Source: Brachybacterium endophyticum
GTDB lineage: Bacteria; Actinomycetota; Actinomycetes; Actinomycetales; Dermabacteraceae
Reading direction: 5' to 3'
Assembly: GCF_003130585.1 (NCBI RefSeq)
Contig: NZ_QFKX01000002.1
Coordinates: 1-64,000 of the forward strand
DNA length: 64,000 nucleotides
Positions 548 to 38,387 of this stretch are shown one piece after another. Under the pieces are notes generated by a model. That model did no database searches. It was given only the letters and a program-made list of their open reading frames with translations, and had not been told where the DNA came from. Every line of letters starts with the position of its first letter. Within the stretch, counting starts at the first letter, position 1. The translations under genes and the position numbers were made by a program.

Positions 548-1855
548 TTGCCCTCTCGTCGTTCCCTGCTCGCCCTGCCGGCCGCCGTGCTGGTGTCGTC
601 GGGGCTCGCTGCCTGCGGGCCCAACATGCCCTCCGGTTCCGGGGGCGGCGCAGGTGGGGCGTCGGACGAGGGGTCCCTGCGCTTCGCGTGGTGGGGGAAC
701 GCTGTCCGCGACGACCTGACGCGCGAGGCGATCTCCACGTATGCGAAGGAGACCCCGGACCTGGCGATCGCGGGCGAGCCCACCGACTGGACGGGCTACT
801 GGGACAAGCTCGCCACCCAGGTCGCCGGTGGGGAGGTCCCCGACATCCTGCAGATGGACGAGGCCTATCTGAGCGAGTACTCGAGCCGCGGCATCCTGCT
901 GGATCTCGGTGACACCGCCATCGACACCGCCGAGTTCGAGTCCTCCGCCGTGGATGCAGGGAAGGTGGACGGCCGGCTCTTCGCGCTCAACGCCGGCGTC
1001 AACGCCCCCGTGCTGCTGGCGAACCCCGAGGTCTTCCGTGCTGCGGGTGCGGAGATGCCGGACGACTCCACCTGGACGTGGGACGACCTGCTCGAGACGT
1101 CCGCTGCGATCACGAAGGCCACTCCTGACGGGACCTACGGCGTCCAGCAGCTCGGCGCCGCGGGCGACCCCTCCCTGAGCGTCTACCTCCGCCAGTTGGG
1201 CGTGGAGAAGTTCGACGGCGAAGGCCTGGGCTTCTCGGCGGACCACCTCGAGCAGTGGATGGACTACTCGCTCCGCCTGCAGAGCTCGAAGGCGTCCCCT
1301 GGCGCCTCTCTCGCCGTGGAGGAGACGGGCAAGGCTGTCGATCAGACGCTGTTCGCCACCGGGAAGTGCGCTCTGGCGTCCGCGTGGTCGAACCAGGTCG
1401 TCAGCAACGACCAGGCCCTGGACGGGGCGGTGAAGGTGCTGAGGCTGCCCTCCATGACCGGGTCGGCCCGGGACGTGCAGCTCTGGTACAAGGCCTCGAT
1501 GTACTTCTGCGCCTCCGCCCGGTCGTCCCAGCAGAGCGCCGCGACGGCCTTCCTCGACTGGCTCGTCAATTCGCCGGACGCCGGGCGGATCCTCGTCGCC
1601 GAACGCGGGGTCCCTGCCAACCTCTCCGTGCGCGAGGAGATCCGTGGAGACCTCTCCGGTGCCGACCTCAAGGCCGTCGACTTCATCGAGTCCATCGCCG
1701 ACGAGCTCGGTGATCCCCCGCCCATCACCCCGCCCGGTGGGACCGCCGTGAGCGATGCATTGGGGCGACACATGGAGGACGTCCTGTTCGGCAGGACGAG
1801 CCCTCCCGAGGCGAGCGAGGCGGCCGTGACCGAAGCCGCCGGGCAGCTCGGCTGA
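548..1855 (+). CDS. Extracellular sugar-binding lipoprotein of a CUT1 ABC importer (copy 1)
   Basis: This 435-residue protein begins with a short Arg-rich n-region and a hydrophobic segment ending in the lipobox LAAC, so Cys23 should be lipidated and anchor it on the outer face of the membrane. A Gly/Ser-rich linker follows, then a family 1 solute-binding fold containing WWGN near the mature N-terminus and SPGASLAVEE in the middle. The start is TTG with AAGGAG just upstream. It is clearly paralogous to the next gene over its whole length. It has no permease directly beside it, so it probably shares the permeases at 3450-5298, or is a diverging spare copy with another ligand preference. The ligand is not visible from sequence; the neighbourhood suggests pectin-derived oligosaccharides. 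Confidence 0.85.
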   Translation: MPSRRSLLALPAAVLVSSGLAACGPNMPSGSGGGAGGASDEGSLRFAWWGNAVRDDLTREAISTYAKETPDLAIAGEPTDWTGYWDKLATQVAGGEVPDILQMDEAYLSEYSSRGILLDLGDTAIDTAEFESSAVDAGKVDGRLFALNAGVNAPVLLANPEVFRAAGAEMPDDSTWTWDDLLETSAAITKATPDGTYGVQQLGAAGDPSLSVYLRQLGVEKFDGEGLGFSADHLEQWMDYSLRLQSSKASPGASLAVEETGKAVDQTLFATGKCALASAWSNQVVSNDQALDGAVKVLRLPSMTGSARDVQLWYKASMYFCASARSSQQSAATAFLDWLVNSPDAGRILVAERGVPANLSVREEIRGDLSGADLKAVDFIESIADELGDPPPITPPGGTAVSDALGRHMEDVLFGRTSPPEASEAAVTEAAGQLG

Positions 1856-1941
1856 GAGCGTGAACGGCTCGACGCGGCGCCGGTCGTCTACCCGGTGGAC
1901 AGCGCTATCCCAGGTCACGAGGTCGTGGTGTTGCGACCGGA

Positions 1942-1981
1942 TGAGAACGTTTGCACAACAGGGGGTCCGTCTGCCTAGAAT
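1942..1981 (+). promoter_or_regulatory. Candidate promoter overlapped by a LacI-type operator
   Basis: TGAGAACGTTTGCA (1942-1955) is an imperfect palindrome around CG (5 of 7 pairs) of the LacI/GalR type. TTGCAC (1951-1956) could be a -35 and TAGAAT (1976-1981) a -10, with a long 19-base spacer. It lies in the 266-base gap between the two binding-protein genes and would allow the second gene and its permeases to be transcribed and repressed separately. Confidence 0.45.
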
Positions 1982-2121
1982 CGCGATCTCTCGTGTGACC
2001 CGGGTCTCCCGGCGCGTGCGGCAGGCAGTGACGCCCCCGCACACCCGACGGACCCTGCCCCGCCTCCACCCGTTCAGCAGTCCAGCACCCGGGGATCCGT
2101 CCCCTGATCGAAGGAGATCAC

Positions 2122-3420
2122 GTGCCTACTCGACGCCAAGCCCTCGGCCTGTCCCTGACCGTCCCCGCCCTCTGGGGCCTCGCCGCCTGCGGCCCGAACC
2201 AGTCCAGCAGCTCCTCCGGTGGCGGGGGTGCGGGATCCCTGCGCTTCATGTGGTGGGGCAACGCGATCCGCGACGACCTGACCCGCAAGGCCATCGACGC
2301 CTACAAGGACGTCCAGCCGGATCTGACGATCTCGGGGGAGCCGGCCGACTGGTCGGGGTACTGGGACAAGCTCGCCACCCAGGTCGCCGGCGGTGACATG
2401 CCCGAGGTGATCCAGATGGACGAGAAGTACCTCAGCGAGTACGGCAACCGCGGAGCCCTTCTCGAGCTGGCGGACGCCGGCCTGGACACGAGCGATTTCG
2501 AGGACACCTCGGTCAAGGCCGGCGAGGTGCCCGACAAGGGCCTGCTCGCCATCAACGCCGGCGTCAACACGCCCGTCCTGCTGGCGAACCCCGCCGTCTT
2601 CGAGAAGGCCGGGGTCGACCTGCCCGATGACACGACATGGACCTGGGACGATCTGATCGACCGGGCCACGCGGATCACCGAGAAGAGTGCGAAGGGCGTC
2701 TACGGCATCCAGCAGATCGGGCTGGTCCAGGCCACCTTCCAGGTCTACATGCGCCAGTTCGGCAAGGACCAGTACGCCACCGACGGCGCCGGCTTCTCGG
2801 CCGAGGACGCCGAGGAGTTCTTCGCCTACGCCCAGAAGCTGCAGGACACCAAGGCCTCGCCCGGCGCCTCCCTCGCCGTCGAGGAGGCCGGCCAGTCCGT
2901 GGACCAGTCGATGTTCTCCACCGGGAAGACCGCCATGCAGGTCGCCTGGTCGAACCAGGTGGTCGCCTTCGACGCCGCCGCCGGCGGGGACGTGCGCGTG
3001 CTGCGCATGCCGTCGATGACCGGCCGGGCCGCCGATGCCCAGCTCTGGTACAAGGCCTCGATGTACTTCGCCGTGGCCGCGAAGGCGTCCGATCCGAAGC
3101 AGGCCGTCGCGTTCGTGGACTGGCTGGTGAACTCGCCGGATGCCGGCAAGCAGCTGCTCGCCGAGCGCGGTGTCCCCGCGAACCTCGAGGTCCGCAAGGC
3201 CATCGAGGGCGACCTCACGGAGTCCGACCGCAAGGCCGTGGACTTCATCGAGGACATCGCCGGGGAGCTCGGCGAGACACCGGTGATCACCCCGCAGGGC
3301 GGCGGCGAGTTCGAGGACATCCTCAAGCGCTGCGGGGAGGACCTGCTGTTCGGTCGCCAGGACGCGAAGGCCGCCGGCAAGGCGCTGCTCGACCAGCTCA
3401 CCTCCGCGATCTCCGTCTGA
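2122..3420 (+). CDS. Extracellular sugar-binding lipoprotein of a CUT1 ABC importer (copy 2)
   Basis: This 432-residue protein has a twin-Arg-containing n-region, a hydrophobic core and lipobox LAAC with Cys23, then a Ser/Gly linker and the same solute-binding fold as copy 1. Shared blocks include WWGNA, SGYWDKLATQVAGG-type sequence, NAGVN and SPGASLAVEEAG. The start is GTG with AAGGAG at 2111-2116; the ten bases GAAGGAGATC precede both copies, so the duplication included the translation signal. It ends 29 bases before the first permease and is the more obvious partner of that permease pair. The likely ligand is an oligosaccharide from pectin, inferred from the neighbours. Confidence 0.9.
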   Translation: MPTRRQALGLSLTVPALWGLAACGPNQSSSSSGGGGAGSLRFMWWGNAIRDDLTRKAIDAYKDVQPDLTISGEPADWSGYWDKLATQVAGGDMPEVIQMDEKYLSEYGNRGALLELADAGLDTSDFEDTSVKAGEVPDKGLLAINAGVNTPVLLANPAVFEKAGVDLPDDTTWTWDDLIDRATRITEKSAKGVYGIQQIGLVQATFQVYMRQFGKDQYATDGAGFSAEDAEEFFAYAQKLQDTKASPGASLAVEEAGQSVDQSMFSTGKTAMQVAWSNQVVAFDAAAGGDVRVLRMPSMTGRAADAQLWYKASMYFAVAAKASDPKQAVAFVDWLVNSPDAGKQLLAERGVPANLEVRKAIEGDLTESDRKAVDFIEDIAGELGETPVITPQGGGEFEDILKRCGEDLLFGRQDAKAAGKALLDQLTSAISV

Positions 3421-3449
3421 GACCCCCGCACCCAGCAGGAAGGACCCCC

Positions 3450-4388
3450 ATGAGTGCACTCGGCGAACTCGCCACCATGGCGAAGACCCGACGCAGAGGC
3501 GGTGTGAAGGAGAAGCACCCCGACAACAAGCCGGCGCTCGCGTTCATGCTGCCGTGGCTGCTGGGGCTTCTCGGCATCACGCTGCTGCCGATGATCGCCT
3601 CGCTGTACCTCTCGTTCACCGACTACAGCCTGCTGGCCGCACCCCGGTGGATCGGGCTGCAGAACTTCGTGGACATGTTCCACGACGCCCGCCTGATGAG
3701 CTCGCTCAAGGTCACCCTGATCTACGTGGTCGTCGGCGTCCCGCTGCAGCTCGCCCTCGCGCTCGCCCTCGCGGTCCTGCTGAACGAGGGCCTGAAGGGG
3801 CTGTCCTTCTACCGCTCGATCTTCTACCTGCCCTCGCTGCTGGGCGGGTCGGTCGCGATCGCGATCCTCTGGCGCCAGATGTTCGGCACCGGAGGACTCG
3901 TCAACCAGTTCCTGGGGATGCTCGGGCTGACGAACCTGCCGGGCTGGATCTCCGACCCCTCGACGGCGCTGGGCACGATCATCCTGCTGCACGTGTGGAC
4001 GTTCGGCTCGCCGATGATCATCTTCCTCGCCGGTCTCCGGCAGATCCCCCAGATGTACTACGAGGCTGCCGCGGTGGACGGCGCGACGAGGTGGAGCCGC
4101 TTCCTGCGCATCACGCTCCCGCTGCTGACGCCGATCATCTTCTTCAACCTCGTGCTCCAGGTGATCAACGCCTTCCAGTCCTTCACGCAGGCGTTCGTGG
4201 TCTCCGGGGGCACCGGAGGACCGTCGGACTCGACCCTCTTCTACACGCTGTACCTCTACCAGAAGGGGTTCACCCAGTTCGACATGGGCTACGCCTCGGC
4301 GATGGCCTGGCTGCTGCTGGTGATCGTCGCGCTCTTCACCGCCGTCAACTTCCTCGTCTCCAAGTTCTGGGTGTTCTACGATGACTGA
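3450..4388 (+). CDS. Sugar ABC transporter permease, MalF/UgpA type
   Basis: This 312-residue inner-membrane protein has about six hydrophobic segments and a binding-protein-dependent transport (MetI-like) domain. The EAA loop, which docks the ATPase, reads EAAAVDGATRW near residue 210. The start is the ATG preceded by AGGAAGGA; the frame stays open further upstream, but that part only shadows the binding-protein gene. It overlaps the next permease by 8 bases, which suggests coupled translation. With 2122-3420 and 4381-5298 it forms a CUT1 importer without its own ATPase. Confidence 0.93.
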   Translation: MSALGELATMAKTRRRGGVKEKHPDNKPALAFMLPWLLGLLGITLLPMIASLYLSFTDYSLLAAPRWIGLQNFVDMFHDARLMSSLKVTLIYVVVGVPLQLALALALAVLLNEGLKGLSFYRSIFYLPSLLGGSVAIAILWRQMFGTGGLVNQFLGMLGLTNLPGWISDPSTALGTIILLHVWTFGSPMIIFLAGLRQIPQMYYEAAAVDGATRWSRFLRITLPLLTPIIFFNLVLQVINAFQSFTQAFVVSGGTGGPSDSTLFYTLYLYQKGFTQFDMGYASAMAWLLLVIVALFTAVNFLVSKFWVFYDD

Positions 4389-5298
4389 CCAGCTCACGAC
4401 CCCCGCCCCGTCGGCCGTCACCACCCCGGCGCCGGCGCCGGCCAACGCCTCCACCCTGCGCCGGCGACGCACACGCCGCGTCGGCCCGGTCGTCCGCCAC
4501 GCGATCCTGATCATCGCCTCGCTGGTCATGATCTACCCGCTGCTGTGGATGGTGGTCAGCTCCCTGCGCCCCAACAGCGAGATCTTCCGCAACCCGGGCC
4601 TTCTGCCCATCCGCTTCAACGTCGAGAACTACGTCAACGGCTGGCACGCGCTCGCCCAGCCCTTCTCGCACTACCTGCTGAACTCGACGTTCCTGGTGCT
4701 GGGCTGCGTGGTCGGCAACGTCATCGCCTGCTCGCTGACCGCCTACGCCTTCGCCCGGCTGCGGTTCTGGGGGCGCAACATCGCGTTCGCGGTCATGCTG
4801 ATGACCCTCATGCTGCCGATCCACGTGGTGATCGTGCCGCAGTACATCATGTTCTCCCAGACCGGATGGGTGAACACGATGCTGCCGCTGATCCTGCCGA
4901 AGTTCCTGGCCACCGACGCCTTCTTCGTCTTCCTCATGGTGCAGTTCATCCGCGGCATCCCGAAGGAGCTCGACGAGGCGGCGCGCATCGACGGCTGCGG
5001 GCACTTCCGGATCTTCTTCCGGGTGATCATGCCGCTGATGACCCCGGCCATCGCCACCACCGTCATCTTCACCTTCATGTGGATGTGGAACGACTTCTTC
5101 GGCTCCCTCATCTACCTCACCACCCCGGACAACTTCACCGTCCCGCTCGCCCTGCGCGCCTTCCTCGACTCGCAGGGCACCTCGGACTGGGGCGCCATGT
5201 TCGCCATGTCCGTGCTGTCCCTGGTCCCCCTGTTCATCGTGTTCCTGTTCGGTCAGCGGTTCCTGATCCGCGGCTTCGCGACCACCGGCATCAAGTGA
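4381..5298 (+). CDS. Sugar ABC transporter permease, MalG/UgpE type
   Basis: This 305-residue protein has a Pro/Ala/Thr-rich cytoplasmic N-terminus of about 35 residues followed by six hydrophobic segments. It ends in GFATTGIK, the ending typical of CUT1 MalG-like permeases. The EAA loop is EAARIDGCGHF, near residue 200. It overlaps the preceding permease by 8 bases and lies 43 bases before the first oxidoreductase gene. No ATP-binding subunit follows; an ATPase shared between importers, as MsiK or MsmX does elsewhere, would have to be encoded outside the window. Confidence 0.93.
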   Translation: MTDQLTTPAPSAVTTPAPAPANASTLRRRRTRRVGPVVRHAILIIASLVMIYPLLWMVVSSLRPNSEIFRNPGLLPIRFNVENYVNGWHALAQPFSHYLLNSTFLVLGCVVGNVIACSLTAYAFARLRFWGRNIAFAVMLMTLMLPIHVVIVPQYIMFSQTGWVNTMLPLILPKFLATDAFFVFLMVQFIRGIPKELDEAARIDGCGHFRIFFRVIMPLMTPAIATTVIFTFMWMWNDFFGSLIYLTTPDNFTVPLALRAFLDSQGTSDWGAMFAMSVLSLVPLFIVFLFGQRFLIRGFATTGIK

Positions 5299-5341
5299 CC
5301 CCCGTCGTCCCACCGTCCCCGACCCCGTGGAAGGACCCTGC

Positions 5342-6751
5342 ATGACCACGCGCTACGGTCTGATCGGCACCGGTCACCGCGCCCAGATGTACATCGATGC
5401 GATCACCGGCCCCCATGCCGACGTCGCCGAGCTCGTCGCCCTGTTCGACACGAACCCCGGGCGCATGCAGCACTACCGCGAGCACCACCCGGCCCTCGCC
5501 GACGTGCCCACCCGCGGACCCGAGCACCTCGAGGAGACCATCGCCGAACTCGGCATCGAGCGCATGATCATCACCTCGATGGACCGCTTCCACGCCGAGC
5601 ACATCGTGCGCAGCCTCGAGGCCGGGGCCGACGTGATCGTCGAGAAGCCGCTGACGATCGACGCCCCGAAGGCCCGCGAGATCGCCGAGGCCGCCGAGCG
5701 CACCGGCCGCAGCGTGACGGTCACCTTCAACTACCGTTACTCCCCGCGCAACAGCGCCCTGCGCGAGGTGATCGCCGACGGACGCATCGGCACCCCGCTC
5801 TCCATGGTCTTCGAATGGGTGCTCGACACCGCCCACGGCGCCGACTACTTCCGGCGCTGGCACCGGGACAAGGCGAACTCGGGCGGACTCTTCGTGCACA
5901 AGGCTTCCCACCACTTCGACCTCGCCTCCTGGTGGGTCGACGCCTACCCGCAGCGCGTCTACGCCCGCGGCGGCGTGCGGTTCTACGGCGCCGAGGCCGC
6001 GGCCCGGCGAGGCGTCACCGCTCCCGCCGAGCGCGGCACCCACGACGGACCGCACGGCCCCTTCGAGCTGGACCTGCGCAGCGACCCCCGCCTGAAGGAG
6101 CTCTACCTCGACCAGGAGCAGCACGACGGGTACCGCCGCGACCAGGACGTCTTCTCCGCCGGGGTGACCACCGAGGACAACCTGACGGCGATCGTCGACT
6201 ACGACAGCGGGCTCACCCTCACCTACGCGCTGACCGCGCACAGTCCCTGGGAGGGCTACCGCGTCGCCGTGAACGGCACCGAGGGCAGGGTCGAGCTCGA
6301 GGTCGTCGAGCGCACCGCCGTGCTCAGGGACCGCGAGGACGGCGTCGCGGCCGACGGGGAGACGGGAGACGCACGCGGCGAGGCGGTCGTCGACCCCAGC
6401 GCGGTGCGCGTGGCCGACGAGGGCGACGGAGCGCGCCACGCGGGCGAGCGCCTCGTCCTGCAGCGTCACTTCGAGGCCGCGCAGGAGGTCGAGATCCCGC
6501 GCGGCGAGGGAGCGCACGGCGGCGGCGACGCCCTCATGCTCGCCGAGGTCTTCCGGGGACGTGGAGCCGGTGCCGGGGACGGGGCAGGTGCCGATCTCGG
6601 TGTCGACGACGGGACGGGAGGTGACCCGCTGGGGCGGGCCGCCGACTGGCACGACGGTCTGCGCGCGATCTCCATCGGCGTCTGCGGCAATGCGTCGATC
6701 GAGACCGGCCGGCCGATCGACGTCGAGACCTTCATGGGCATCGACCGATGA
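5342..6751 (+). CDS. Gfo/Idh/MocA family oxidoreductase
   Basis: This 469-residue protein starts with a Rossmann segment (YGLIGTGHRAQMY, GxGxxA-like) and carries the family's EKP motif (VEKPLTID, near residue 100), whose Lys contacts cofactor and substrate. The C-terminal half is the alpha/beta dimer and substrate domain. At 469 residues it is longer than the usual 330-400 because of insertions near residues 215-240 and 330-400. I chose the ATG after GGAAGGACC rather than the upstream GTG. It overlaps the next oxidoreductase by four bases. Such enzymes oxidise or reduce sugar hydroxyls with NAD(P); the substrate is unknown, and an uronate or unsaturated sugar derivative would suit the locus. 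Confidence 0.85.
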   Translation: MTTRYGLIGTGHRAQMYIDAITGPHADVAELVALFDTNPGRMQHYREHHPALADVPTRGPEHLEETIAELGIERMIITSMDRFHAEHIVRSLEAGADVIVEKPLTIDAPKAREIAEAAERTGRSVTVTFNYRYSPRNSALREVIADGRIGTPLSMVFEWVLDTAHGADYFRRWHRDKANSGGLFVHKASHHFDLASWWVDAYPQRVYARGGVRFYGAEAAARRGVTAPAERGTHDGPHGPFELDLRSDPRLKELYLDQEQHDGYRRDQDVFSAGVTTEDNLTAIVDYDSGLTLTYALTAHSPWEGYRVAVNGTEGRVELEVVERTAVLRDREDGVAADGETGDARGEAVVDPSAVRVADEGDGARHAGERLVLQRHFEAAQEVEIPRGEGAHGGGDALMLAEVFRGRGAGAGDGAGADLGVDDGTGGDPLGRAADWHDGLRAISIGVCGNASIETGRPIDVETFMGIDR

Positions 6752-8019
6752 GCGCGGATCGCGCCGCAGGGCACGGAGGATCCGGTGGCCGTCCGCTCGC
6801 GCTGATCGGCACCCGCGGCTTCGGCGCCGTGCACCTTGAGCAGATGGCCCCTCTGCGCGAGAGCGGGCGGATCCGCCTGGTCGGCGTCGTCGACGTCGCC
6901 GAGCCCGACCCCGGGATCGGCGCCCCGTGGTTCCCGACCCTCGATGCCCTGCTCGAGGGCGCCGAGGAACGCCCCGAGATCCTGGTCGTCGCGACCCCCA
7001 TCACCACCCATGCCGACCTCGCCCTCGCCGGTCTCGCCGCCGGCTGCCACCTCTACCTCGAGAAACCGCCCGTTCCCTCCCTCGCCGACCACGCCCAGGT
7101 GTTGCACGAGGCACGCAGGACCGGGCGCAGCGTCCAGGTCGGCTTCCAGGCGCGCGGCGGAGGAGGCGCGACCCGGATGCGCGAGCTGCTCGCCACCGGG
7201 GCGCTCGGCGAGGTCCGCAGCGTCGACGCCTACGGCGCCTGGCTCCGCGACCGCGCCTACTACGCGCGCAGCCCCTGGGCAGGCCGGCGCCGGATGGACG
7301 GTCGACGCGTGGCCGACGGGGTCGCCACCAACCCCCTCGCCCATGCCGTCGACCTCGCACTCCTGACCGCGGGGATCACCCGTGCCGCCGACATCGGGGT
7401 CATCACCAGCGAACTGCGCCGCGCCCACGACATCGAGGCCGACGACACCACCTATCTGCGCGTGGATCCCGTCGGCGCTGCCGGTCCGGTGGACCCCAGC
7501 GGCACGATGAGCCCCGCTCCCTTCGTCCACGCCGCTCTGACCACCACCGCCCCCGTCCAGGAGGAGCCATGGATCCAGATCCGGGGCGACCAGGGGCGTG
7601 CACGGCTCGAGTACACGACCGACCGTCTCGAGATCGTCGATGCCTCGGGGCGCGCCACCGAGGAGCGCTTCGGCCGCGAGAGCCTGCTGGAGAACCTCCT
7701 GGACCACCTGGACGATCCTGCCGTGGCGCTGCTGTCGCCGCTCGAGAGCACCGAGGCCTTCACGACCGTCCTCGAGGCGACCCAGTCGGGTCCCGATCCT
7801 CGGCCCATCGACGCCGAGCACGTGACCTGGGAGGGCGAGGGGGCGGCGGCTCATCCCCTGGTCCACGACGTCGAGGACTGGATGACGCGCGCTCTGGACG
7901 CCGGCGAGCCCTTCAGCCGCATCGGCGCTCCCTTCGCCGATCCCACGGCGATTCACCAGACCGACCCGTCGACCCTCGGGATCGACACACACCGAACCAC
8001 CGGAGGAGATGCCCGATGA
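6748..8019 (+). CDS. Gfo/Idh/MocA family oxidoreductase
   Basis: This 423-residue protein has an N-terminal NAD(P)-binding fold (LIGTRGFGAVHL) with the EKP motif YLEKPPVPS near residue 110. The second domain contains the region VATNPLAHAVDLAL, where these enzymes usually place a catalytic His (here in AHAVD). It starts inside the stop of the preceding oxidoreductase (ATGA) and its own stop overlaps the uxaE start in the same way, so the three genes are translationally coupled. It is only distantly similar to its upstream neighbour. Substrate unknown; its place beside uronate enzymes suggests a sugar-acid or oligosaccharide oxidation. Confidence 0.85.
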   Translation: MSADRAAGHGGSGGRPLALIGTRGFGAVHLEQMAPLRESGRIRLVGVVDVAEPDPGIGAPWFPTLDALLEGAEERPEILVVATPITTHADLALAGLAAGCHLYLEKPPVPSLADHAQVLHEARRTGRSVQVGFQARGGGGATRMRELLATGALGEVRSVDAYGAWLRDRAYYARSPWAGRRRMDGRRVADGVATNPLAHAVDLALLTAGITRAADIGVITSELRRAHDIEADDTTYLRVDPVGAAGPVDPSGTMSPAPFVHAALTTTAPVQEEPWIQIRGDQGRARLEYTTDRLEIVDASGRATEERFGRESLLENLLDHLDDPAVALLSPLESTEAFTTVLEATQSGPDPRPIDAEHVTWEGEGAAAHPLVHDVEDWMTRALDAGEPFSRIGAPFADPTAIHQTDPSTLGIDTHRTTGGDAR

Positions 8020-9473: not shown

Positions 9474-9477
9474 CCCG

Positions 9478-12177: not shown

Positions 12178-12183
12178 CGCTGT

Positions 12184-15021: not shown

Positions 15022-15035
15022 TGCAATCGTTTGCA
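15022..15035. promoter_or_regulatory. LacI-family operator between uxaC and lacI
   Basis: TGCAATCGTTTGCA is a near-perfect palindrome (6 of 7 pairs) centred on CG, the form bound by LacI/GalR regulators. It overlaps the -35 of the promoter for the LacI gene, so autoregulation is expected. It is close enough to uxaC to control that operon too. Confidence 0.7.
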
Positions 15036-28220: not shown

Positions 28221-28250
28221 ACCGTAGATATGAAACGATTCATTCGTCAA
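28221..28250 (-). promoter_or_regulatory. Rhamnose operon promoter with LacI-type operator in the spacer
   Basis: On the minus strand TTGACG (28250-28245) and TACGGT (28226-28221) are 18 bases apart. The spacer is filled by ATGAAACGATTCAT (28230-28243 read on the plus strand; 6 of 7 pairs), a LacI/GalR-type palindrome. A bound repressor would exclude RNA polymerase completely. Confidence 0.65.
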
Positions 28251-29164: not shown

Positions 29165-29200
29165 CGCGGCGGAACACGGGCCGAGAGAGAGGATTCCCGC

Positions 29201-30283: not shown

Positions 30284-31321
30284 ATGCCCGCCGACCTACC
30301 GTCCGCGCAGACCGCGACCGCGACGACTGCACAGGTAGGGGGTGAGATGGCCCGGCGCATGCACGATCTCGGCAGCGCAGGGACCTGGGAGGAGCTCGGG
30401 GAGTCCGCTCGCGGGACCTGGGACGAGGCCTACGGGCCGGCCGAGGAGTGGCCGGTCCAGGCCGCCGACGACGAGGTGCCGGGGCCGAACGGGCCCGTCC
30501 CGATCCGCATCTACACGCCGACCGCGCACGCCTACGGTCCGCGAGCGGTCCTCGTGTGGTGCCACGGCGGCGCGTTCATGCACGGTGACCTCGACATGCC
30601 CGAGGCCGACCACGTCGCTCGCGGGGTCGCCGGCCGCGCCGACGCGATCGTCGTCTCCGTGGACTACCGGCTGTGCGACGAGCCCCCCGAGCTCGGCGGC
30701 ATGGCCGCCCGGAGCGTCGGCGGCTCCACCGGAGGCGTGCACGCGCCGGTGCCGCTCGACGACGTCTGCGCCGTCGTGCGCTGGGCGCGCGAGAGCGCCG
30801 AGGAACTCGGCGGGAACCCGCTGCGGATCGCCGTCGGTGGAGCGAGCGCGGGCGGGAACCTGGCGGCGGCGGCCTCGCTGCGCCTCACCGAGGAGGGGAC
30901 CCCGCTGGCAGCATCCCTCCTGCTGTACCCGGTCGCGCACGCCGCGATGCCGGAGCCGTCGGCCGAGGAGGACGCGGCGCTCACCCAGATCGCGCCCGTG
31001 CTGCGTTTCCTGCCCGAGCGCACCGGGCTGATGGCGACCGCCTACGTGGGCGGGGACCCCGCGGAGGCCGATGCCTACGTGTTCCCCAGCCGCGCGGACG
31101 CGGAGCGTCTGGCGGGCCTGCCCCGCACCTACATCGAGGCCGACGAGTTCGACGACCTCCGCGTCAGCGCCCGCGCCTACGCGGATCAGCTCGCCCAGGC
31201 CGACGTCGACGTCGAGTACACGGTGCGCCGCGGAGTGGCGCACGGTCACCTCAACCGGGTCGGCCTGGCGGAGGCGAGGGAGTCGATGGACCGCATGGGA
31301 CAGATCATGCGGGAGCTGTGA
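30284..31321 (+). CDS. Alpha/beta hydrolase of the hormone-sensitive-lipase type
   Basis: This 345-residue protein has the oxyanion-hole motif HGG (94-96 in CHGGAFMHGD), the nucleophile elbow GASAG with Ser188, Asp in EADEFDDLR and His in VAHGHLN, the arrangement of HSL-family esterases. It has no signal peptide. Residues 1-21 are not conserved-looking; ATG at 30347, preceded by GTAGGGGGTGAG, is an alternative start. It overlaps the DUF2264 gene by four bases (GTGA), so the two are translationally coupled, which suggests a carbohydrate esterase role on the same substrate. Confidence 0.82.
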   Translation: MPADLPSAQTATATTAQVGGEMARRMHDLGSAGTWEELGESARGTWDEAYGPAEEWPVQAADDEVPGPNGPVPIRIYTPTAHAYGPRAVLVWCHGGAFMHGDLDMPEADHVARGVAGRADAIVVSVDYRLCDEPPELGGMAARSVGGSTGGVHAPVPLDDVCAVVRWARESAEELGGNPLRIAVGGASAGGNLAAAASLRLTEEGTPLAASLLLYPVAHAAMPEPSAEEDAALTQIAPVLRFLPERTGLMATAYVGGDPAEADAYVFPSRADAERLAGLPRTYIEADEFDDLRVSARAYADQLAQADVDVEYTVRRGVAHGHLNRVGLAEARESMDRMGQIMREL

Positions 31322-33495
31322 TCAGGCGGCCGGTGCGCGGGTCGACGGTCCCGGGCCTGCCCCCGCCCGATCCGGACCTCTCCCCGTGCACCGGCCTCAC
31401 CCGCGCGCACTGGGAGGCCGTGGCCGACCACCTGCTGCTCGCCCTGCGCCCCCATGCGAGCTCGAACCACGCCTTGATCTGCCCGCCGGGACGCCCGAGC
31501 CGCAGCGGCGCCCGCTCCGACGGGCTCGAGGGGTTCGCTCGCTCGTTCCTGCTGGCCGCCGGGCTGATCCGGGCGCGCGGGGACGAGGACCCCCACGCGC
31601 ACGCCGACCGCTACGCACGGGGACTCGCCGCCGGCGTCGACCCCGCGGCCGAGGACGCCTGGCCCCGTCCCTCCGAGTGCGCCCAGGCGAAGGTCGAGGC
31701 CTGCGCGCTCGCGATCGGCCTCGACGCCACCCGCGCGCAGATCTGGGACCGTCTGGACCCCGCCGTCCGGGCCCGGCTCGTCGACTGGTTCGCCGAGGTC
31801 ATCGGCACGCCGTACCCGGAGACCAACTGGGTGTGGTTCCGGATCACCGTGCTCACGTTCCTGCGCTCGGTCGACGACCGCTTCGTCGGCGGTGAGCGCT
31901 CGGAGGAGGTGCTCGCCGATCTCCGGCGCGACCTCCGCGTGCACGAGTCCCTCGTGCGGGAGGGTGGCTGGTTCGCCGACGGCCCCGACCGCAGCTTCGA
32001 CCACTACGCCGACTGGGTCTTCTCCCTGCTGTCCGCGCTCTGGGGGCGGATGGCGGGATCGTCGACCCTGGATCGCCCCGGCCTGCTGGGGCCCCTCGAC
32101 CGTGAACGCCACCGCCGCCGCCTCGGGAGCTATCTCCCCGCTGCGCTCGGCCTGCTCGGTGCGGACGGCTCCCCGTTGATCCAGGGCCGCAGCCTGGTCT
32201 ACCGGATGGCGAGCGCCGGCACGTTCTGGGCCGGCGCCATCGCTGGTGTCGACGCTGACGTCGCCCCACCGGGACTGCTGCGCCGGGCGGCCTCCGGGAC
32301 CCTCGCGCACTTCCTCGCCCACGGGGTGCCCGACGACGACGGCCTGCTCACCCTGGGCTGGTTCCACCGCTTCGAACCGATGGCCCAGGCCTACTCGGGA
32401 CCCGGGTCGCCCTACTGGGCAGCGATGGGATTCGCCGGTCTCCTGCTGCCTCCCACGCACCCCGTCTGGACCGCGCCGGAGGAGCCGCTGCCCGTCGAAC
32501 GCGGCGACGGCGTGAGCGTCCTGCGGGCGCCCGGCTGGATCGTCTCGCGCACCAGGGCCGACGGGATCGTGCGCGTCCTCAACCACGGCACCGACCACGC
32601 GCGCCAGCGGTCCGAGGGCCTCGACGACCCGTTGTACGCGCGGCTCGGGTACTCCACCGCGACCAGCCCGCAGATGCTCCCCGGCGCGGCGACGCCTGCG
32701 GGCCCCGACGGGGCTGTGGGCGACGGTGAACAGGCGAGCGACGGCGAAATGGTGTGCGACGGCGTCGTCGAACCGCGGGACGCCACCGTCGGGCTCGTCG
32801 ATCCCGTACGCGGGTGGAGCCACCGGACCGGCTTCGAGACCCTCGTGCTGCGAGGCGAGGGCGCCGGCACGGGCGAGGGCGGGATCGGCATCGCCGTGTC
32901 CCGCCAGCGGTGCCACTGGCCGTCGGATGACCGGGGCGAGCCCGAGGACGCGGGACCGGCAGTGGCGGGGGCAGGCCGGGAAGGACCTGAACTGCTCGTG
33001 GGCACGCTCAGCCATGGCCCTGACACGGTGCTGCTCGTGCGCAGTCCCGGTGGGACCGGCGGCCTCCCGATCGGGGTGGCCGGCTGGCCGCTGTGCGGGG
33101 ACCGGGTGGACGTGGAGCCGGACGTCGTCGCCGCGATGGGAGCGACGGCGAGCACCCGACGGGCCGACGGGTCGCTGCTGCGCAGCTCGCTCACGATCCT
33201 GCGCGGCGAGGGCCGGGTGCGGGCGCGTCGGGCAGGGCAGGTCGCCCCGCTGGGGCCCGAGTACGCGGTGCCGGAGGCGATGGTCGACCCGCCCGGGCCC
33301 GGGCCCGGGGGCGTGGTCGTGCTCCTGATGCGGCTCGCGGGCAGCCCGGCCGGCACCGATGCGCCTGCACCCGAGGTCCGCCGCGCCGGGTCCGGAGGAT
33401 TCCTCGTCAGCTGGGGCGGGAGCGAGCAGGCGTTCCTGGATCTCGGCGATCCTGCGGCGCAGGAGGAGCCCACGGACCCCACAGCGTCGCCGTGA
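31318..33495 (+). CDS. DUF2264 domain protein, probable carbohydrate-active enzyme
   Basis: This 725-residue cytoplasmic protein carries a DUF2264 domain over about residues 10-370: ETNWVWFRI, LVREGGWFADGPDRSFDHY, and GRSLVYRMASAGTFWAG are its conserved blocks, consistent with an (alpha/alpha)-toroid. From memory, some DUF2264 proteins have been assigned to GH154 beta-glucuronidases; I cannot check that here. The second half is beta-rich and less conserved. The GTG start overlaps the preceding stop (GTGA), with GGGAG upstream. Its 3' end overlaps the convergent DUF624 gene by 89 bases. Confidence 0.8.
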   Translation: MIRRPVRGSTVPGLPPPDPDLSPCTGLTRAHWEAVADHLLLALRPHASSNHALICPPGRPSRSGARSDGLEGFARSFLLAAGLIRARGDEDPHAHADRYARGLAAGVDPAAEDAWPRPSECAQAKVEACALAIGLDATRAQIWDRLDPAVRARLVDWFAEVIGTPYPETNWVWFRITVLTFLRSVDDRFVGGERSEEVLADLRRDLRVHESLVREGGWFADGPDRSFDHYADWVFSLLSALWGRMAGSSTLDRPGLLGPLDRERHRRRLGSYLPAALGLLGADGSPLIQGRSLVYRMASAGTFWAGAIAGVDADVAPPGLLRRAASGTLAHFLAHGVPDDDGLLTLGWFHRFEPMAQAYSGPGSPYWAAMGFAGLLLPPTHPVWTAPEEPLPVERGDGVSVLRAPGWIVSRTRADGIVRVLNHGTDHARQRSEGLDDPLYARLGYSTATSPQMLPGAATPAGPDGAVGDGEQASDGEMVCDGVVEPRDATVGLVDPVRGWSHRTGFETLVLRGEGAGTGEGGIGIAVSRQRCHWPSDDRGEPEDAGPAVAGAGREGPELLVGTLSHGPDTVLLVRSPGGTGGLPIGVAGWPLCGDRVDVEPDVVAAMGATASTRRADGSLLRSSLTILRGEGRVRARRAGQVAPLGPEYAVPEAMVDPPGPGPGGVVVLLMRLAGSPAGTDAPAPEVRRAGSGGFLVSWGGSEQAFLDLGDPAAQEEPTDPTASP

Positions 33496-34144
33496 GGAGC
33501 GGAGGGAGCGAGAACCCGCAGGCGATCGTGAGGGGCGCCAGCAGCCAGAGCGGGGAGAGCACCGCGACGGCGAGAGGCGCGAGCAGCGCGCGCAGAGGGC
33601 GCGAGGCGCACAGCCCCATCGCCTCGCGCGCGACCGCGAGCCAGTCGACCTCCTCGGACTCGGCCGCCACCCGCACGTAGGCCGAGAGCCACGCGATCAT
33701 CGCCCAGGTGGGAGGGGTCAGGACGCCCGCCACGAGGACTCGCGAGGACGCGGGCAGCGAGGCGAGGAACAGGCCGTCGAAGCCGATCGCCAGGATCGTC
33801 AGCACGAGCAGCGCCGAGGTCGGTGCGTCGCGCAGCAGTGTTCGCCGGATGCGGGAGATCGTCGAGCGGAAGGCGGTGTCGGCGGAGTCCCCGAGCCGGG
33901 TGGTCGTGCGGGTGGCCGCGGCCAGCGCCGTGACCAGGCCGATCACGGTGAGGACCCCCAGCAGCGCCGCCGCGTTCGCCGCGATCAGCGCTCCGGGGAG
34001 GACGAAGAACCGCAGCAGGCCCTGCGGCTCGAGCCGGGGATCACGATCGGACTCGTGCCCCGCGGACGGGATGGTGCGAGAGGCGGAGGGGGCGGTGGGC
34101 GCCGTGACGGCGGTGGCGGCGGGGCCGGTGGCGGAGGTCGTCAT
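33407..34144 (-). CDS. DUF624 (YesL-like) membrane protein
   Basis: This 245-residue protein has about five to six hydrophobic segments and resembles DUF624/YesL: PGALIAANAAALLGVLTVIG followed by a helix ending in TRTTTRL, and a conserved amphipathic stretch RIRRTLLRDAPTS. In Bacillus subtilis yesL heads the rhamnogalacturonan operon next to the yesOPQ importer; here it likewise abuts a binding protein and two permeases. Its job is unknown, perhaps assembly of the importer. The ATG overlaps the permease stop by one base. Its last 89 bases are antisense to the DUF2264 gene. Confidence 0.75.
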   Translation of the reverse strand: MTTSATGPAATAVTAPTAPSASRTIPSAGHESDRDPRLEPQGLLRFFVLPGALIAANAAALLGVLTVIGLVTALAAATRTTTRLGDSADTAFRSTISRIRRTLLRDAPTSALLVLTILAIGFDGLFLASLPASSRVLVAGVLTPPTWAMIAWLSAYVRVAAESEEVDWLAVAREAMGLCASRPLRALLAPLAVAVLSPLWLLAPLTIACGFSLPPLLTATLWGPWAPPAPQDRRDPGTPARSRPS

Positions 34145-35085
34145 CACTTGATCCCCGAGGAGGCGAAGCCCTGCACGAAGTAGCGCTGGAAGATCAGGAA
34201 CAGCACGATCATGGGGACCGCGGCGAGCGTCGTCCCTGCCATCAGCAGGTGCCAGTCGGTCGAGGCCTCCTGCCGGAAGGAGGCGATGCCCACCTGGATC
34301 ACCCGGAGGTCGTCCGAGGTCGTCACCAGCAGCGGCCACAGGAAGTTGTTCCAGCCCGCCTCGAAGCTCAGCAGTCCCACCGTGAGCAGGCCCGGCCGGA
34401 TCAGCGGGGTGATGATCCGGGTGAAGATGCCGAACTCGCTCACCCCGTCCAGCCGTGCCGCCTCGATCAGCTCCGAGGGCGTCGAGACGTAGAACTGGCG
34501 GAAGAGGAACACCATGAACGGGGAGACCGCTCCGGGCACGATCAGGGCCCACCAGGTGTCGATCCATCCGGTGCCGCCCGCTCCCAGGATCGTGTTCCCG
34601 CCGAACAGCGGCATGTGTCGCACCATCAGGAAGACGGGGATCACCGTCGCGTAGAACGGGATCATGATGCAGGCGACCATCCACGCGAAGATGGCCGGGG
34701 CCAGGCGGAACCGCAGCTTCGCGAGGGCGTACCCGCAGGCGGAGGCGAAGACCACGTTGAGCACCGCTGCCGCCGTGGCCAGGATCAGGCTGTTGCGCGC
34801 GTACGTCGCGAACGGGGCGCGGCCCAGCGCCTCGCTGTAGTTCTCCAGGCGCAGGTCCCTCGGGATCAGGGGCATCGGGGTGCGGGCGAGCTCCGTCGGA
34901 TCGCGCAGGGAGGACAGCGCCATCCACAGGAACGGCGCGGCCATGATCAGCGACGCGATGATCAGGAACGCCAGCACGAGCGTGTTCGACAGGCGCTTCT
35001 GACGGCGCAGGCTGCGGTCGCGGGCGCGTCCCCGGTGCGGGGGAGCGAGGGGATCGGGAGCGCCAGGGGCGAGATCAGTCGTCAT
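34144..35085 (-). CDS. Sugar ABC transporter permease, MalG/YesQ type
   Basis: This 313-residue protein has six hydrophobic segments. The EAA loop is EAARLDGVSEFGIF, and it ends in GFASSGIK, the usual ending of CUT1 MalG-like permeases. It overlaps the MalF-like permease upstream by 11 bases and the DUF624 gene downstream by one base. It belongs to the second CUT1 importer of the island, unlike in sequence to the one at 3450-5298. Confidence 0.93.
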   Translation of the reverse strand: MTTDLAPGAPDPLAPPHRGRARDRSLRRQKRLSNTLVLAFLIIASLIMAAPFLWMALSSLRDPTELARTPMPLIPRDLRLENYSEALGRAPFATYARNSLILATAAAVLNVVFASACGYALAKLRFRLAPAIFAWMVACIMIPFYATVIPVFLMVRHMPLFGGNTILGAGGTGWIDTWWALIVPGAVSPFMVFLFRQFYVSTPSELIEAARLDGVSEFGIFTRIITPLIRPGLLTVGLLSFEAGWNNFLWPLLVTTSDDLRVIQVGIASFRQEASTDWHLLMAGTTLAAVPMIVLFLIFQRYFVQGFASSGIK

Positions 35086-36031
35086 CGGAGCCTCCGACGA
35101 TGCGGCGGGACAGGAACGCGAGCACGACCAGGATCAGCAGCAGGATCACCGACTGGGCGTTGGCCAGGCCCACGCGGAACTCCTGGAAGGCCGTCTGGTA
35201 GATGCGGTAGGTGACCACGGAGGTCGAGTTCGCCGGCCCGCCCTCGGTCAGGATGTAGATCAGGTCGAAGGTCTGGAAGTTCGAGATCAGCGAGGTGACC
35301 AGGATGAAGAAGGTCGCCGGCTTGAGCATCGGCACGGTGATGCGGAAGAACTTCTGCACCGCGTTGGCGCCGTCCAGGTCCGCGGCCTCGTAGAGCTGGT
35401 CGTCGACGCCCTGCATGGCCGCCAGGTAGATCAGCATCTTGAGGCCGATGCCCTGCCAGATCGTCACCAGGATGACGCTGCCCAGCGCCAGGTCCGGATC
35501 AGTGAGGAAGGGCAGCGGGCCGATCCCGACGAGACCCAGCACCACGTTCATCAGGCCGCTCTGCGAGGGGCTGTAGATCCACAGCCAGATCATCGCGACC
35601 GCGACGGTGGCGGTGATGTGGGGGAGGAAGACCATCACCCGGAACGCCCCGCGTCCCGGGAGGGCGCGATCGAGCATCGTGGCGAAGACGAGGGCGAGGA
35701 ACATCGAGACGGGGATGCCGACGGCCGCGATGATCACGTTGTGCAGGACCGAGAGCCAGAACAGGCCGTCGGTGAAGATCGTCGCGTAGTTCTCCAGGCC
35801 GGCGAACTCGGGCGCGTGGATGATGTCGTAGGCCGTGAAGCTCAGGACGATCGCGACGAGGATCGGGGCCCCGATCCAGATCAGGGTGTGCAGGGTAGCC
35901 GGTGCCGCGAGCAGCAGGCCCCAGCGTCTCTCGGCGGTGCGCACGGAGCGTCGCCGCCGACCCGGCAGGGCATCGGGTCGCGCGGCGTGCGCGGCGGTGC
36001 CGGCGGATGTGGTGGGGGCTGTGGTGGTCAT
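35075..36031 (-). CDS. Sugar ABC transporter permease, MalF/YesP type
   Basis: This 318-residue protein has an N-terminal cytoplasmic segment of about 30 residues, six hydrophobic segments and the EAA loop EAADLDGANAVQKFF. It starts 5 bases after the stop of the binding-protein gene and overlaps the next permease by 11 bases. It pairs with 34144-35085 to form the channel of a CUT1 importer that again lacks an ATPase gene nearby. Confidence 0.93.
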   Translation of the reverse strand: MTTTAPTTSAGTAAHAARPDALPGRRRRSVRTAERRWGLLLAAPATLHTLIWIGAPILVAIVLSFTAYDIIHAPEFAGLENYATIFTDGLFWLSVLHNVIIAAVGIPVSMFLALVFATMLDRALPGRGAFRVMVFLPHITATVAVAMIWLWIYSPSQSGLMNVVLGLVGIGPLPFLTDPDLALGSVILVTIWQGIGLKMLIYLAAMQGVDDQLYEAADLDGANAVQKFFRITVPMLKPATFFILVTSLISNFQTFDLIYILTEGGPANSTSVVTYRIYQTAFQEFRVGLANAQSVILLLILVVLAFLSRRIVGGSDDD

Positions 36032-36035
36032 GTCC

Positions 36036-37340
36036 TCAGATCCTGCTGATCGCGCCGTCGCACAGCTTCTTCATGTCGGCCAGGGTCTGATCGACCGTGG
36101 CCCCGCCCGTCAGGCAGGTCTCGACGATGCCGTCGAGATTGCTGCGCACCTCCATGTACGCCGCCGAGCCGCCCTCGGCCGCTCCCGCGTGGGCGAGGTT
36201 CTCGAGCCCGAAGGTCATCAGCAGGTTGCTGCGGATCCCTTCGCTCTCGGGGATGTCGGGCGTCGGCGGGACCTTCCCGGTCGCCGCGCTCGCCGCGCTC
36301 AGGATGTCGGGATCGAGCATGTGCTTCATCAGGGCCGCCGCGGCGTCCTTGTTCTTCGACAGGCTCGAGACCGAGATGAAGGTACCGCCCTGGAACATCA
36401 CGGGGTCGCTGCCGGTGCCGCTGGGCAGCAGGAACGTGCCCACCGCGCCCTTCTCACACAGGTCCGGCGTCATGGTCTCCCAGGTGGGCCAGTTGCCGGT
36501 GGACACCAGGGACATGGCCGCCGTCCGCTGCTGGAACGGTGAGGGCTGGCCCTCCGCGGCCCGTATCGAGTAGTCGATGGCGCCGGAGTCCATGCAGTCC
36601 AGCATCCACTGCAGGGCCCGCCGCCCCGGCTCCTCGTGCAGCCGGGGCGCGAGGCCGTCCGCGCTGAAGAGGGTGCCCCCGAAGGCGTAGAGGAGGAACA
36701 CGAAGGCCTGGCGGGCGCTGCCCGCGCTGCCCGAGAGGAAGTCGAGGCCGACGACGCCGTCGCCGGTCAGCTCGGCGGCGACCTGGGCGAGCTCGTCGAG
36801 CGTGCGGGGAGGGTCGTCGATACCCTTCTTCTCCAGCAGGTCCGGGTGGTAGCCGATGAACCTCAGGTCCAGGGCCTGCGGCAGCGAGTAGTACGCGCCG
36901 TCGTACCGCGTGGACATCAGCACGCTCTCGTCGTATCCGAGGCTCTCGATGTACTCGGCCGGGATCTCGGCGAAGATGCCCTTCTCGGCGAACGGCTGGG
37001 TCCATCCCACGCCGGTCATGATGACGTCGGCGATGATCCCGCCGGCGATCCCCGTCGAGATCTTCTCGTTGAGCTTGTCCCAGTCGACCTGGTCGACGGA
37101 CACCTCGACGCCGGTCCTCCTCGTGAACGGGGCGATGATGTCGTCGTCCAGCACGGCGCGGTCATCGCCCACGAAGTCCGGGGTCAGAAGGGCGATCGAC
37201 CCGGTGAGGTCCGCGTCGGGCGCCTCGAGGTCGAGGGGCACGGACGGGTCCATCGCACCGCCCGACCCGCAGGCGGCGCAGCCGAGGGTGAGGGCGCCGG
37301 CTCCCGAGGCGGCGAAGAGGGTGCGACGGGGCAGTGCCAT
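36036..37340 (-). CDS. Extracellular sugar-binding lipoprotein of the second CUT1 importer
   Basis: This 434-residue protein has an Arg-containing n-region, a hydrophobic core and a lipobox ending LGCAAC; Cys24 is the probable lipid-modified residue, although Cys21 also lies in the segment. The mature part is a family 1 solute-binding fold (YYSLPQALDLRFIGYHPDLL, MFQGGTFISVSS). GAGGAG precedes the ATG. It is the first gene of the operon with two permeases and DUF624 and is divergent from the isomerase at 37614. The ligand is not readable from sequence; the YesO-like context suggests rhamnogalacturonan oligosaccharides. Confidence 0.9.
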   Translation of the reverse strand: MALPRRTLFAASGAGALTLGCAACGSGGAMDPSVPLDLEAPDADLTGSIALLTPDFVGDDRAVLDDDIIAPFTRRTGVEVSVDQVDWDKLNEKISTGIAGGIIADVIMTGVGWTQPFAEKGIFAEIPAEYIESLGYDESVLMSTRYDGAYYSLPQALDLRFIGYHPDLLEKKGIDDPPRTLDELAQVAAELTGDGVVGLDFLSGSAGSARQAFVFLLYAFGGTLFSADGLAPRLHEEPGRRALQWMLDCMDSGAIDYSIRAAEGQPSPFQQRTAAMSLVSTGNWPTWETMTPDLCEKGAVGTFLLPSGTGSDPVMFQGGTFISVSSLSKNKDAAAALMKHMLDPDILSAASAATGKVPPTPDIPESEGIRSNLLMTFGLENLAHAGAAEGGSAAYMEVRSNLDGIVETCLTGGATVDQTLADMKKLCDGAISRI

Positions 37341-37491: not shown

Positions 37492-37506
37492 TGGAAAGCG
37501 GTTGCA
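37492..37506. promoter_or_regulatory. LacI-type operator candidate
   Basis: TGGAAAGCGGTTGCA has the AANCGNTT core of LacI/GalR sites. It lies in the 273-base gap between the divergent binding-protein and isomerase genes and could regulate the importer operon. Weaker palindrome than the sites at 15022 and 28230. Confidence 0.4.
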
Positions 37507-37559
37507 CGATGTTGTCGCCCGCGAGGTCGGCGCCAGCGGACACGGGTGGATCCGCGTCG

Positions 37560-37571
37560 TGAAACGTGTCA
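37560..37571. promoter_or_regulatory. LacI-type operator before the isomerase gene
   Basis: TGAAACGTGTCA pairs at 5 of 6 positions around the central CG and closely resembles the sites before the GH78 gene (18422) and the rhamnose operon (28231). It ends 42 bases before the GTG of the isomerase. Confidence 0.55.
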
Positions 37572-37613
37572 GTATCCCGGGCACCTGCCGGCCCATCGCG
37601 CGAGGAGCGTCCA

Positions 37614-38387
37614 GTGCCCCACGGAGTCATCGCAGACATCGCCCAGCAGCGCACGGTGCTGCTCGCCGGTGCCGACTACCTCGAACCGACAGTGGTGGGA
37701 AGCCTGGTCGTCCAGGATGCCGGCGGGAGCTGGCGCGACGCCGAGGTCACCCCGGACAGCCCGATCGGATCGTGCGCCGTGCTGGTGCCCTCGACGGTGC
37801 GCATCGCGGATCCCTCCGTGCCGATCGCAGCGGTCCGGGAGTACCTGCGCACCGCCCTGGGCGCGATCGGGCGAGTGGCGCTGCCCGGCACGAAAGCGGT
37901 CCTGGGCAGCGGCGCCGCGCGCACCATCGGGCCCGACGTGCGCCGCGGGGACGGCATCGCCCGCTTCGCCGACGTGCTCACGATCGCGCGGGACCTCGCC
38001 GCGGAGCAGGGCCTGGAGATCATCCTCGAGCCGCTCCACCGCGGGGAGACCGACCTGATCCACTCCATCGAGGAGGCCGCAGAGTTCCTCGATGCGCACG
38101 GGATCGGGGGCGTACGGATCGTCGCCGACCTCTTCCACATCCAGAAGGAGGGGGAGCGCCTGGAGACCGTGGAGCGCTTCGCCGGGCGGATCGGCCACGT
38201 CCACGTCGCCGACACCGACCGGATGCCGCCGGGGCAGGGCGACTGGCCGATCGCACCGTTCCTCGGGGCGCTGCGCCGGGGAGGATGCTCGAGCGACGTG
38301 ACCATCGAGTGCTCGTGGCGGGATCTCGCGGAGGAGCTGCCCGACGCGCTCGCCGTGGTCCGGGCTGCCGACCCGCTCCTGCGCTGA
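37614..38387 (+). CDS. Sugar phosphate isomerase/epimerase family protein (TIM barrel)
   Basis: This 257-residue protein belongs to the xylose-isomerase-like TIM-barrel (AP endonuclease 2) family. Likely metal ligands are the Glu in LEPLHRGE, Asp/His in VADLFHIQKEG, His in GHVHVADTD and Glu in IECSW. Members isomerise or epimerise keto-sugars. I chose the GTG at 37614, preceded by GAGGAG, over the GTG at 37566, which lies inside an operator. It is divergent from the second importer and has a LacI-type palindrome upstream, so it probably acts on a sugar that importer delivers. Confidence 0.85.
   Translation: MPHGVIADIAQQRTVLLAGADYLEPTVVGSLVVQDAGGSWRDAEVTPDSPIGSCAVLVPSTVRIADPSVPIAAVREYLRTALGAIGRVALPGTKAVLGSGAARTIGPDVRRGDGIARFADVLTIARDLAAEQGLEIILEPLHRGETDLIHSIEEAAEFLDAHGIGGVRIVADLFHIQKEGERLETVERFAGRIGHVHVADTDRMPPGQGDWPIAPFLGALRRGGCSSDVTIECSWRDLAEELPDALAVVRAADPLLR

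Follow-up and report, generated by a model that had tools for sequence, protein, structure and literature searches.

A candidate rhamnogalacturonide-scavenging locus in Brachybacterium endophyticum

Contig C10 of the Brachybacterium endophyticum genome carries, within its first 64 kb (NZ_QFKX01000002.1, positions 1–64,000; hereafter the window), a locus at 548–38387 for sugar import, glycoside hydrolysis and the catabolism of both rhamnose (Rha) and galacturonate (GalA), which raises the question of what glycan it serves and how much of that glycan the cell can take apart by itself. A first-pass annotation made from the sequence had proposed that oligosaccharides of rhamnogalacturonan-I (RG-I) are imported and that their degradation is finished inside the cell. 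The window was examined in the context of the whole genome (G000; 3.55 Mb, 17 contigs, 99.89% complete), of 38 genomes from the genus and of 394 from the class, both samples including the genome itself. Forty-eight window genes were called from codon composition; all were scanned against Pfam and selected ones against NCBIfam. For the comparison with congeners, a set of 29 locus genes was used (g01–g28 plus the open reading frame (ORF) at 33407–34147). The locus is real and conserved, and it is a variant of a known system type in which PL11, PL26 and GH88/GH105 were not detected. We consider it probable (roughly 70%) that it constitutes a rhamnogalacturonide-scavenging regulon. Literature searches covering UxaE, GH154 and RG-I, the last both in Actinobacteria and with regard to its lyases, gave no title on this locus among the matches listed, and a search on DUF2264 found none.

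Homologous loci around RG-I lyases

The gene content of the locus by itself fits other Rha/uronate glycans too; the comparison across the genus was decisive. Genes more than 50% identical to members of the 29-gene set were found in the fetched stretches of four congeners, G403 (25 genes), G405 (25), G426 (22) and G417 (20), with gene order largely retained in the first three. In G417, the 20 genes are regrouped on contig C9 (about 89–136 kb, within about 50 kb) around genes for PL11 and for the Pfam family PcRGLX, which we take to be PL26. This arrangement starts with orthologues of importer 2, its protein with four transmembrane-like segments, an isomerase and an esterase (51–89% identical), which adjoin PL26 and PL11; genes for a GDSL/YXIM esterase and DUF1961 come next, then rhaI/rhaEW/rhaB, and lastly GH78, GH106, a binding protein, two LacI genes, UxaE, the Gfo/Idh/MocA pair, permeases and a further binding protein.

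PL26 and PL11 were found together in the same 6 of 38 genus genomes (G402, G406, G407, G411, G416 and G417), and whole-genome profile searches found neither in G000, G403, G405 or G426. Fragment making is thus separated from fragment eating within the genus, a split that allows a test of producers against scavengers. Homologues of the window esterase at 30347–31321 (56–65% identical) lie near PL26 in G402, G406, G407 and G416, and another lies near PL26 in G417; none was present in the fetched stretch of G411. Beyond the genus, two Micromonospora loci (L026 and L027) combine DUF2264 with permeases that share 51–53% identity with the importer 1 permeases (51–52% in L026); L026 also has PL26, placed between the two (L027 was not annotated). 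By position, these lyase neighbourhoods tie the window genes to RG-I and strengthen the role first proposed. BNR_4 proteins are also encoded near PL26 in congener RG-I loci (L122 14945–16429; L132 12030–13445; L133 3754–5835) and are possibly another lyase.

The known system type is represented by the yes-type RG-I cluster of Bacillus subtilis, where a CUT1 importer brings in oligosaccharides that are finished in the cytoplasm, as is proposed for the window locus; the G417 version shares PL11, the GDSL/YXIM esterase and DUF1961 with it as well. In contrast to the Bacillus cluster, the window locus unites rhamnosidases with both monosaccharide pathways, has LacI regulators and a UxaE route, and lies in a genome in which PL11 and GH88/GH105 were not detected.

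Import, catabolism and regulation

Two CUT1-type importers, GH78, GH106, DUF2264, RhaI, UxaC and UxaE, all named by the first-pass annotation, were recovered in profile searches. A closely packed run of plus-strand genes (548–12177) begins with importer 1, which comprises tandem binding proteins at 548–1855 (SBP_bac_8; a lipoprotein by hydropathy and a lipobox recognised by eye, with an uncertain TTG start) and 2122–3420 (profile match), 57% identical to each other, and two BPD_transp_1 permeases (3504–4388 and 4381–5298), and it continues with the Gfo/Idh/MocA pair, UxaE and GH106. Importer 2, on the minus strand, consists of permeases at 34144–35085 and 35075–36031 and a binding protein at 36036–37340 (profile matches). 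A profile search of the 48 called window genes returned no match to an ABC-transporter ATPase. Behind importer 2, a small minus-strand ORF (33407–34147) overlaps a permease gene by 4 bases and has four transmembrane-like segments in a simple hydropathy count. It was the sole candidate for the YesL-like protein reported earlier, but it had no DUF624 match in Pfam at E 0.001 or even at E 10, and the argument from YesL was therefore dropped. The two importers would take up short Rha/GalA oligosaccharides that other microbes free from RG-I.

Two alpha-L-rhamnosidases are predicted, GH106 (9478–12177, plus strand; PF17132) and GH78 (16141–18399, minus strand; profile match), the latter divergent from the second LacI gene. 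Residues E258 and E393 of GH106 align with E461 and E593 of 5mqm, so that both of what we take to be the catalytic glutamates are kept (E461 is Q in 5mwk). A hydropathy scan found a hydrophobic N-terminus in all three binding proteins and none in GH78, GH106 or DUF2264, so these three enzymes are most likely cytoplasmic, as the earlier proposal of import followed by internal processing had it. From their family function, GH78 and GH106 would there strip rhamnose from non-reducing ends.

The presumed rha operon lies on the minus strand and is headed by an MFS permease (26851–28191; profile match), followed by L-rhamnose isomerase RhaI (25613–26791; TIGR02635, over cut-off), RhaEW (23500–25542; NF006188 and TIGR02632, over cut-off) and a rhamnulokinase-like RhaB (21870–23489; FGGY; TIGR02627, 373 bits against a cut-off of 528). 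What had been called a fused rhaD is indeed a fusion, although its identity is that of the rhamnulose-1-phosphate aldolase/lactaldehyde dehydrogenase RhaE–RhaW, which according to PMC3870299 yields dihydroxyacetone phosphate (DHAP) and L-lactate. Rhamnose would, by homology, pass through RhaI, RhaB and RhaEW to these two products. The rhamnose regulons with RhaI–RhaB–RhaEW described in that paper have the same catabolic enzymes, RhaEW fusion included, whereas here the rha genes adjoin uronate catabolism and two oligosaccharide-type importers.

Galacturonate would be converted to mannonate, again by homology, by uronate isomerase UxaC (13516–14946, minus strand; over cut-off; divergent from LacI regulator 1), tagaturonate/fructuronate epimerase UxaE (8016–9473, plus strand; PF16257, E 3.6e-111; PDB 9lhu and 6il9) and a fructuronate-reductase-like member of the mannitol dehydrogenase superfamily (12184–13503, minus strand; Mannitol_dh). 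The earlier names rhaB and fructuronate reductase hold at the level of family matches, but both genes score below the curated cut-offs; the reductase reaches 205 bits against 603, and its best NCBIfam score, to D-arabinitol 4-dehydrogenase (220 bits), is below cut-off too. The steps beyond mannonate, whose absence the first-pass annotation had named as evidence against its proposal, are present at a second genome site (C1:188–195 kb), which holds an enolase-type mannonate dehydratase ManD (192–194 kb; 633 bits against a cut-off of 550), a KDPG aldolase (PF01081 over cut-off; NCBIfam 146.5 bits against 156, below), a KDG-kinase-like gene and a second fructuronate-reductase-like gene. The mannonate dehydratase is thus ManD and not UxuA, which was not detected in the genome. 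With ManD, KDG kinase and KDPG aldolase acting on mannonate, the galacturonate route appears complete by homology, from UxaC, UxaE and the reductase onwards. The surrounding region C1:54–364 kb is a sugar-acid catabolic region and holds 7 of the 10 MR_MLE_C (enolase-superfamily) and 2 of the 3 KDPG-aldolase-family matches of the genome. A KduI candidate was rejected, the sole PF04962 match of the genome having turned out to be IolB, and a KduI route for unsaturated uronate is therefore without support here.

UxaE is rare in the class, being found in only 2 of 394 genomes (G000 and the congener G230; a Thermotoga maritima control was positive), and is present in 26 of 38 genus genomes, G000 included. 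The surroundings of 21 congener UxaE genes from 20 genomes were fetched, five further genomes being left out. In four of these stretches (G403, G405, G426 and G417) UxaE stands in a block like that of the window, and in the other 17 the context differs, 15 of them having nearby a LacI gene resembling that at 15151–16134 and 13 a gene judged by eye to resemble an alcohol dehydrogenase; G417 has both kinds of context. The UxaE family is shared with the routes of Thermotoga and Cohnella, the latter being the source of one solved homologue, but in the window genome it is paired with the enolase-type ManD. In four congeners the two Gfo/Idh/MocA oxidoreductases (5342–6751 and 6748–8019, plus strand; profile matches) still accompany UxaE and GH106. 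Their PDB neighbours include many dehydrogenases at similar scores, among them glucuronide-3-dehydrogenase 8tdi, and none of these functions was assigned to the pair.

Two LacI-family regulators are encoded on the plus strand (15151–16134 and 18507–19523; profile matches), and a regulator of the IclR family on the minus strand beside rhaB (21089–21859; profile match). Two operator-like palindrome patterns, TGMAACGTTKCA (a 12-mer) and TGMAANCGNTTKCA, were searched for with at most two mismatches and gave four and five matches, respectively, in 64 kb. All nine are intergenic (intergenic DNA makes up about 8%), and eight are at the locus, the ninth lying outside it at 60702. The site upstream of the importer 1 operon (338–349; LacI type, two mismatches) has a similar site at the orthologous position in G403, G405 and G426, and the same three relatives have the palindromes between the binding-protein genes (1942–1955), both of those in the divergent uxaC/lacI region (15022–15035 and 15081–15094) and that upstream of the presumed rha operon (28231–28242). 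The site between GH78 and the second LacI gene (18422–18433, no mismatch) recurs in G403 and G426, its place in G405 coinciding with the edges of two fetched stretches, and the two sites between importer 2 and the gene at 37614–38387 (37493–37506 and 37560–37571) are both found in G403 and G405, the two relatives with importer 2. The scan also hit other places in the stretches from the relatives, including one within a gene. Through such common palindromes the LacI-type regulators may jointly switch the importers, the rhamnosidase and the catabolic operons.

Missing enzymes, DUF2264 and alternative readings

The enzymes that would make or open longer fragments were not detected. Profile searches of the genome found no GH28, PL11 or PL26, although all of these rang in control genomes, and no GH88/GH105 (PF07470) at E 0.001, a family that rings in 3 of 14 controls. 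The statement that no lyase is present in the locus thus extends genome-wide for PL11 and PL26; PL9 and PL4 were not searched for. GH88/GH105 was likewise absent from 85 scanned ORFs, out of 88 unmatched ones of 300–900 amino acids near PL26/PL11 in six congeners, in a scan that covered these neighbourhoods, not whole congener genomes, and showed 25 of 28 families in one listing, so that a weak family could be hidden. With GH28 and GH88/GH105 undetected, the standard handling of the GalA-Rha bond or of an unsaturated end was not found here. The disaccharide Rha-GalA needs a rhamnosidase alone and is fully accounted for; beyond it, the earlier claim that the cell finishes degradation is unsupported. 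As PL11, PL26, GH28 and GH88/GH105 are all undetected, the cell probably uses fragments freed by others.

How the GalA-Rha bond is cleaved when GH28 and GH88/GH105 are undetected is a clear enzymatic question. The lineage may open this bond, or an unsaturated end, by other chemistry, most likely through oxidation and subsequent elimination by the Gfo/Idh/MocA pair, helped by the protein at 37614–38387, or through dehydration of the DUF2264 type and then a further hydrolase; we regard this as doubtful. A second question is the role of a GH154-type dehydratase that lacks a detected GH88/GH105 partner.

That protein, DUF2264 (31333–33495, plus strand; profile match), has the GH154 members 8oi4 and 9o4u/9nwf as its closest solved relatives. 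PMC12269599 proposes that GH154 be reclassified as uronate dehydratases acting ahead of GH88, and it lists ten residues mutated in the beta-D-glucuronate dehydratase BcGDH (E74, R78, N176, N177, W178, F181, Y229, R285, Y289 and Y354). Nine of the ten are kept in the window protein (E66, R70, N165, W166, F169, Y225, R286, Y290 and Y354, with E66 and R70, which lie beyond the pairwise alignment, assigned from motif spacing), and N176 is replaced by T164 at a position that varies across the family. Eight of the nine are identical in 37 of 37 aligned sequences, and the ninth, the W, in 36 of 37. An AlphaFold2 (AF2) model (pLDDT 82.7, pTM 0.88) matched 8oi4 and 9o4u best (TM-score 0.74–0.78 by target length) over the first domain. 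The window protein thus shares the N-terminal-domain fold and a uronate-dehydratase active site with BcGDH, but it has an extra C-terminal beta domain, stands in another kind of locus and has no GH88/GH105 detected in its genome. With the added beta domain, the full-length model resembles glycosaminoglycan lyases, heparinase III and alginate lyases less closely; from this lower-ranked structural likeness, an exo-lyase acting on Rha-GalA is a possibility. DUF2264 was found in 5 of 38 genus genomes, G000 included, has other contexts elsewhere in the genus and went undetected in G403, G405 and G426, which retain most other locus genes. Its standing as a fixed part of the locus is thus unsupported; it probably functions as an accessory dehydratase of uronate glycosides that was acquired next to the conserved genes. 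On the evidence of 33 loci in named genomes (see below), DUF2264 was also rejected as a general marker of RG-I use, even though L026 has PL26 adjoining.

Several results weigh against a rhamnogalacturonide-scavenging regulon. PL11, PL26, GH28 and GH88/GH105 are undetected in a 99.89% complete genome, which leaves the pathway incomplete for longer oligosaccharides and lyase products, and RhaB, the fructuronate reductase, KDG kinase and, in NCBIfam, KDPG aldolase all score under their curated cut-offs. In the fetched C9 stretches of G417, orthologues of UxaC and of the reductase were not found, and for 33 DUF2264 loci from named genomes a search of the flanks (up to 10 kb) at E 1e-15 gave no match to UxaE, RhaI, RhaB, GH78 or GH106. 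The palindrome patterns were picked after these same regions had been viewed, and the pattern TGMAACGTTKCA is weak in dinucleotide shuffles, 6 of 100 reaching four matches (0 of 100 reached five for the better TGMAANCGNTTKCA). G417 has palindromes at some of its genes and none found near importer 2. G403, G405 and G426 are close kin, so that conservation of the sites is partly kinship and gives support, not proof.

Three other explanations were weighed against this background. The real substrates could be Rha/glucuronate (GlcA) glycans, such as arabinogalactan-protein or gum caps or bacterial exopolysaccharide, or plant rhamnosides, with the uronate genes serving mainly for glucuronate. GH78 and GH106 are broad families, the family name of UxaC is glucuronate isomerase, a solved DUF2264 relative acts on beta-GlcA according to PMC12269599, and PL11, PL26, GH28 and GH88/GH105 are undetected in the genome; from pathway knowledge, however, UxaE is needed for galacturonate and not for glucuronate, and the homologous G417 locus is linked to PL11 and PL26, so that we hold such substrates to be unlikely. 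It is less probable still that three separate catabolic islands, for free rhamnose, for galacturonate glycosides and for DUF2264 with an importer, merely lie side by side. The operons are separate and the regulators three, DUF2264 is accessory here and found in other contexts in the genus, and most congener UxaE genes (17 of 21) stand elsewhere, but chance adjacency is hard to reconcile with an order largely retained in three relatives, with modules regrouped around PL11/PL26 in G417 and with alike palindromes before both importers and the rha and uxaC operons.

The slimmest chance is given to DUF2264 being a true glycoside hydrolase, the beta-galactosidase or beta-glucuronidase of the original GH154 reports, that would supply the missing cut. 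Although its best-scoring solved relative, 8oi4, was deposited as a beta-galactosidase and the GH88/GH105 partner is undetected, PMC12269599 reports for GH154 neither consistent hydrolase activity nor a hydrolase-like active site, with dehydratase activity in two members; the dehydratase residues are largely kept in the window protein, and RG-I contains alpha-GalA, not a beta uronide.

Accessory genes and the edges of the window

The first-pass annotation had overlooked a number of genes, namely the tandem second binding protein, the Gfo/Idh/MocA pair, two alpha/beta hydrolases, a sugar-isomerase-like protein, the two LacI and one IclR regulators and two MFS permeases, as well as the operator-like palindromes. 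The alpha/beta hydrolases, on the plus strand at 29354–30148 (low-scoring AXE1/DLH) and 30347–31321 (Abhydrolase_3), may be deacetylases, and the MFS permease at 19561–20901 (minus strand; profile match) may serve in uronate or sugar uptake. At 37614–38387 (plus strand), a xylose-isomerase-like TIM-barrel protein (PF01261; weak IolO match) with orthologues in G403, G405 and G417 is a putative sugar or uronate isomerase/epimerase. Another xylose-isomerase-like protein (39931–40725) adjoins the locus on the outside; homologues of it (56–59% identical) lie less than 4 kb from DUF2264 in two congeners (L149 and L152), and it is kept in G403, G405 and G426, there without DUF2264.

GC content along the window is 67–75%. 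Bases 1–45 correspond to the 3' end of a 5S rRNA gene, and window positions 1–207 recur on contig C12 (96%), where the copy overlaps a full 5S rRNA match, so that contig C10 begins at an rRNA operon. Positions 60–153, which include a hairpin at 60–144, recur on C16 (97%). Towards the other end of the window, a gene for the bacterial small signal recognition particle (SRP) RNA is found at 60903–60999.

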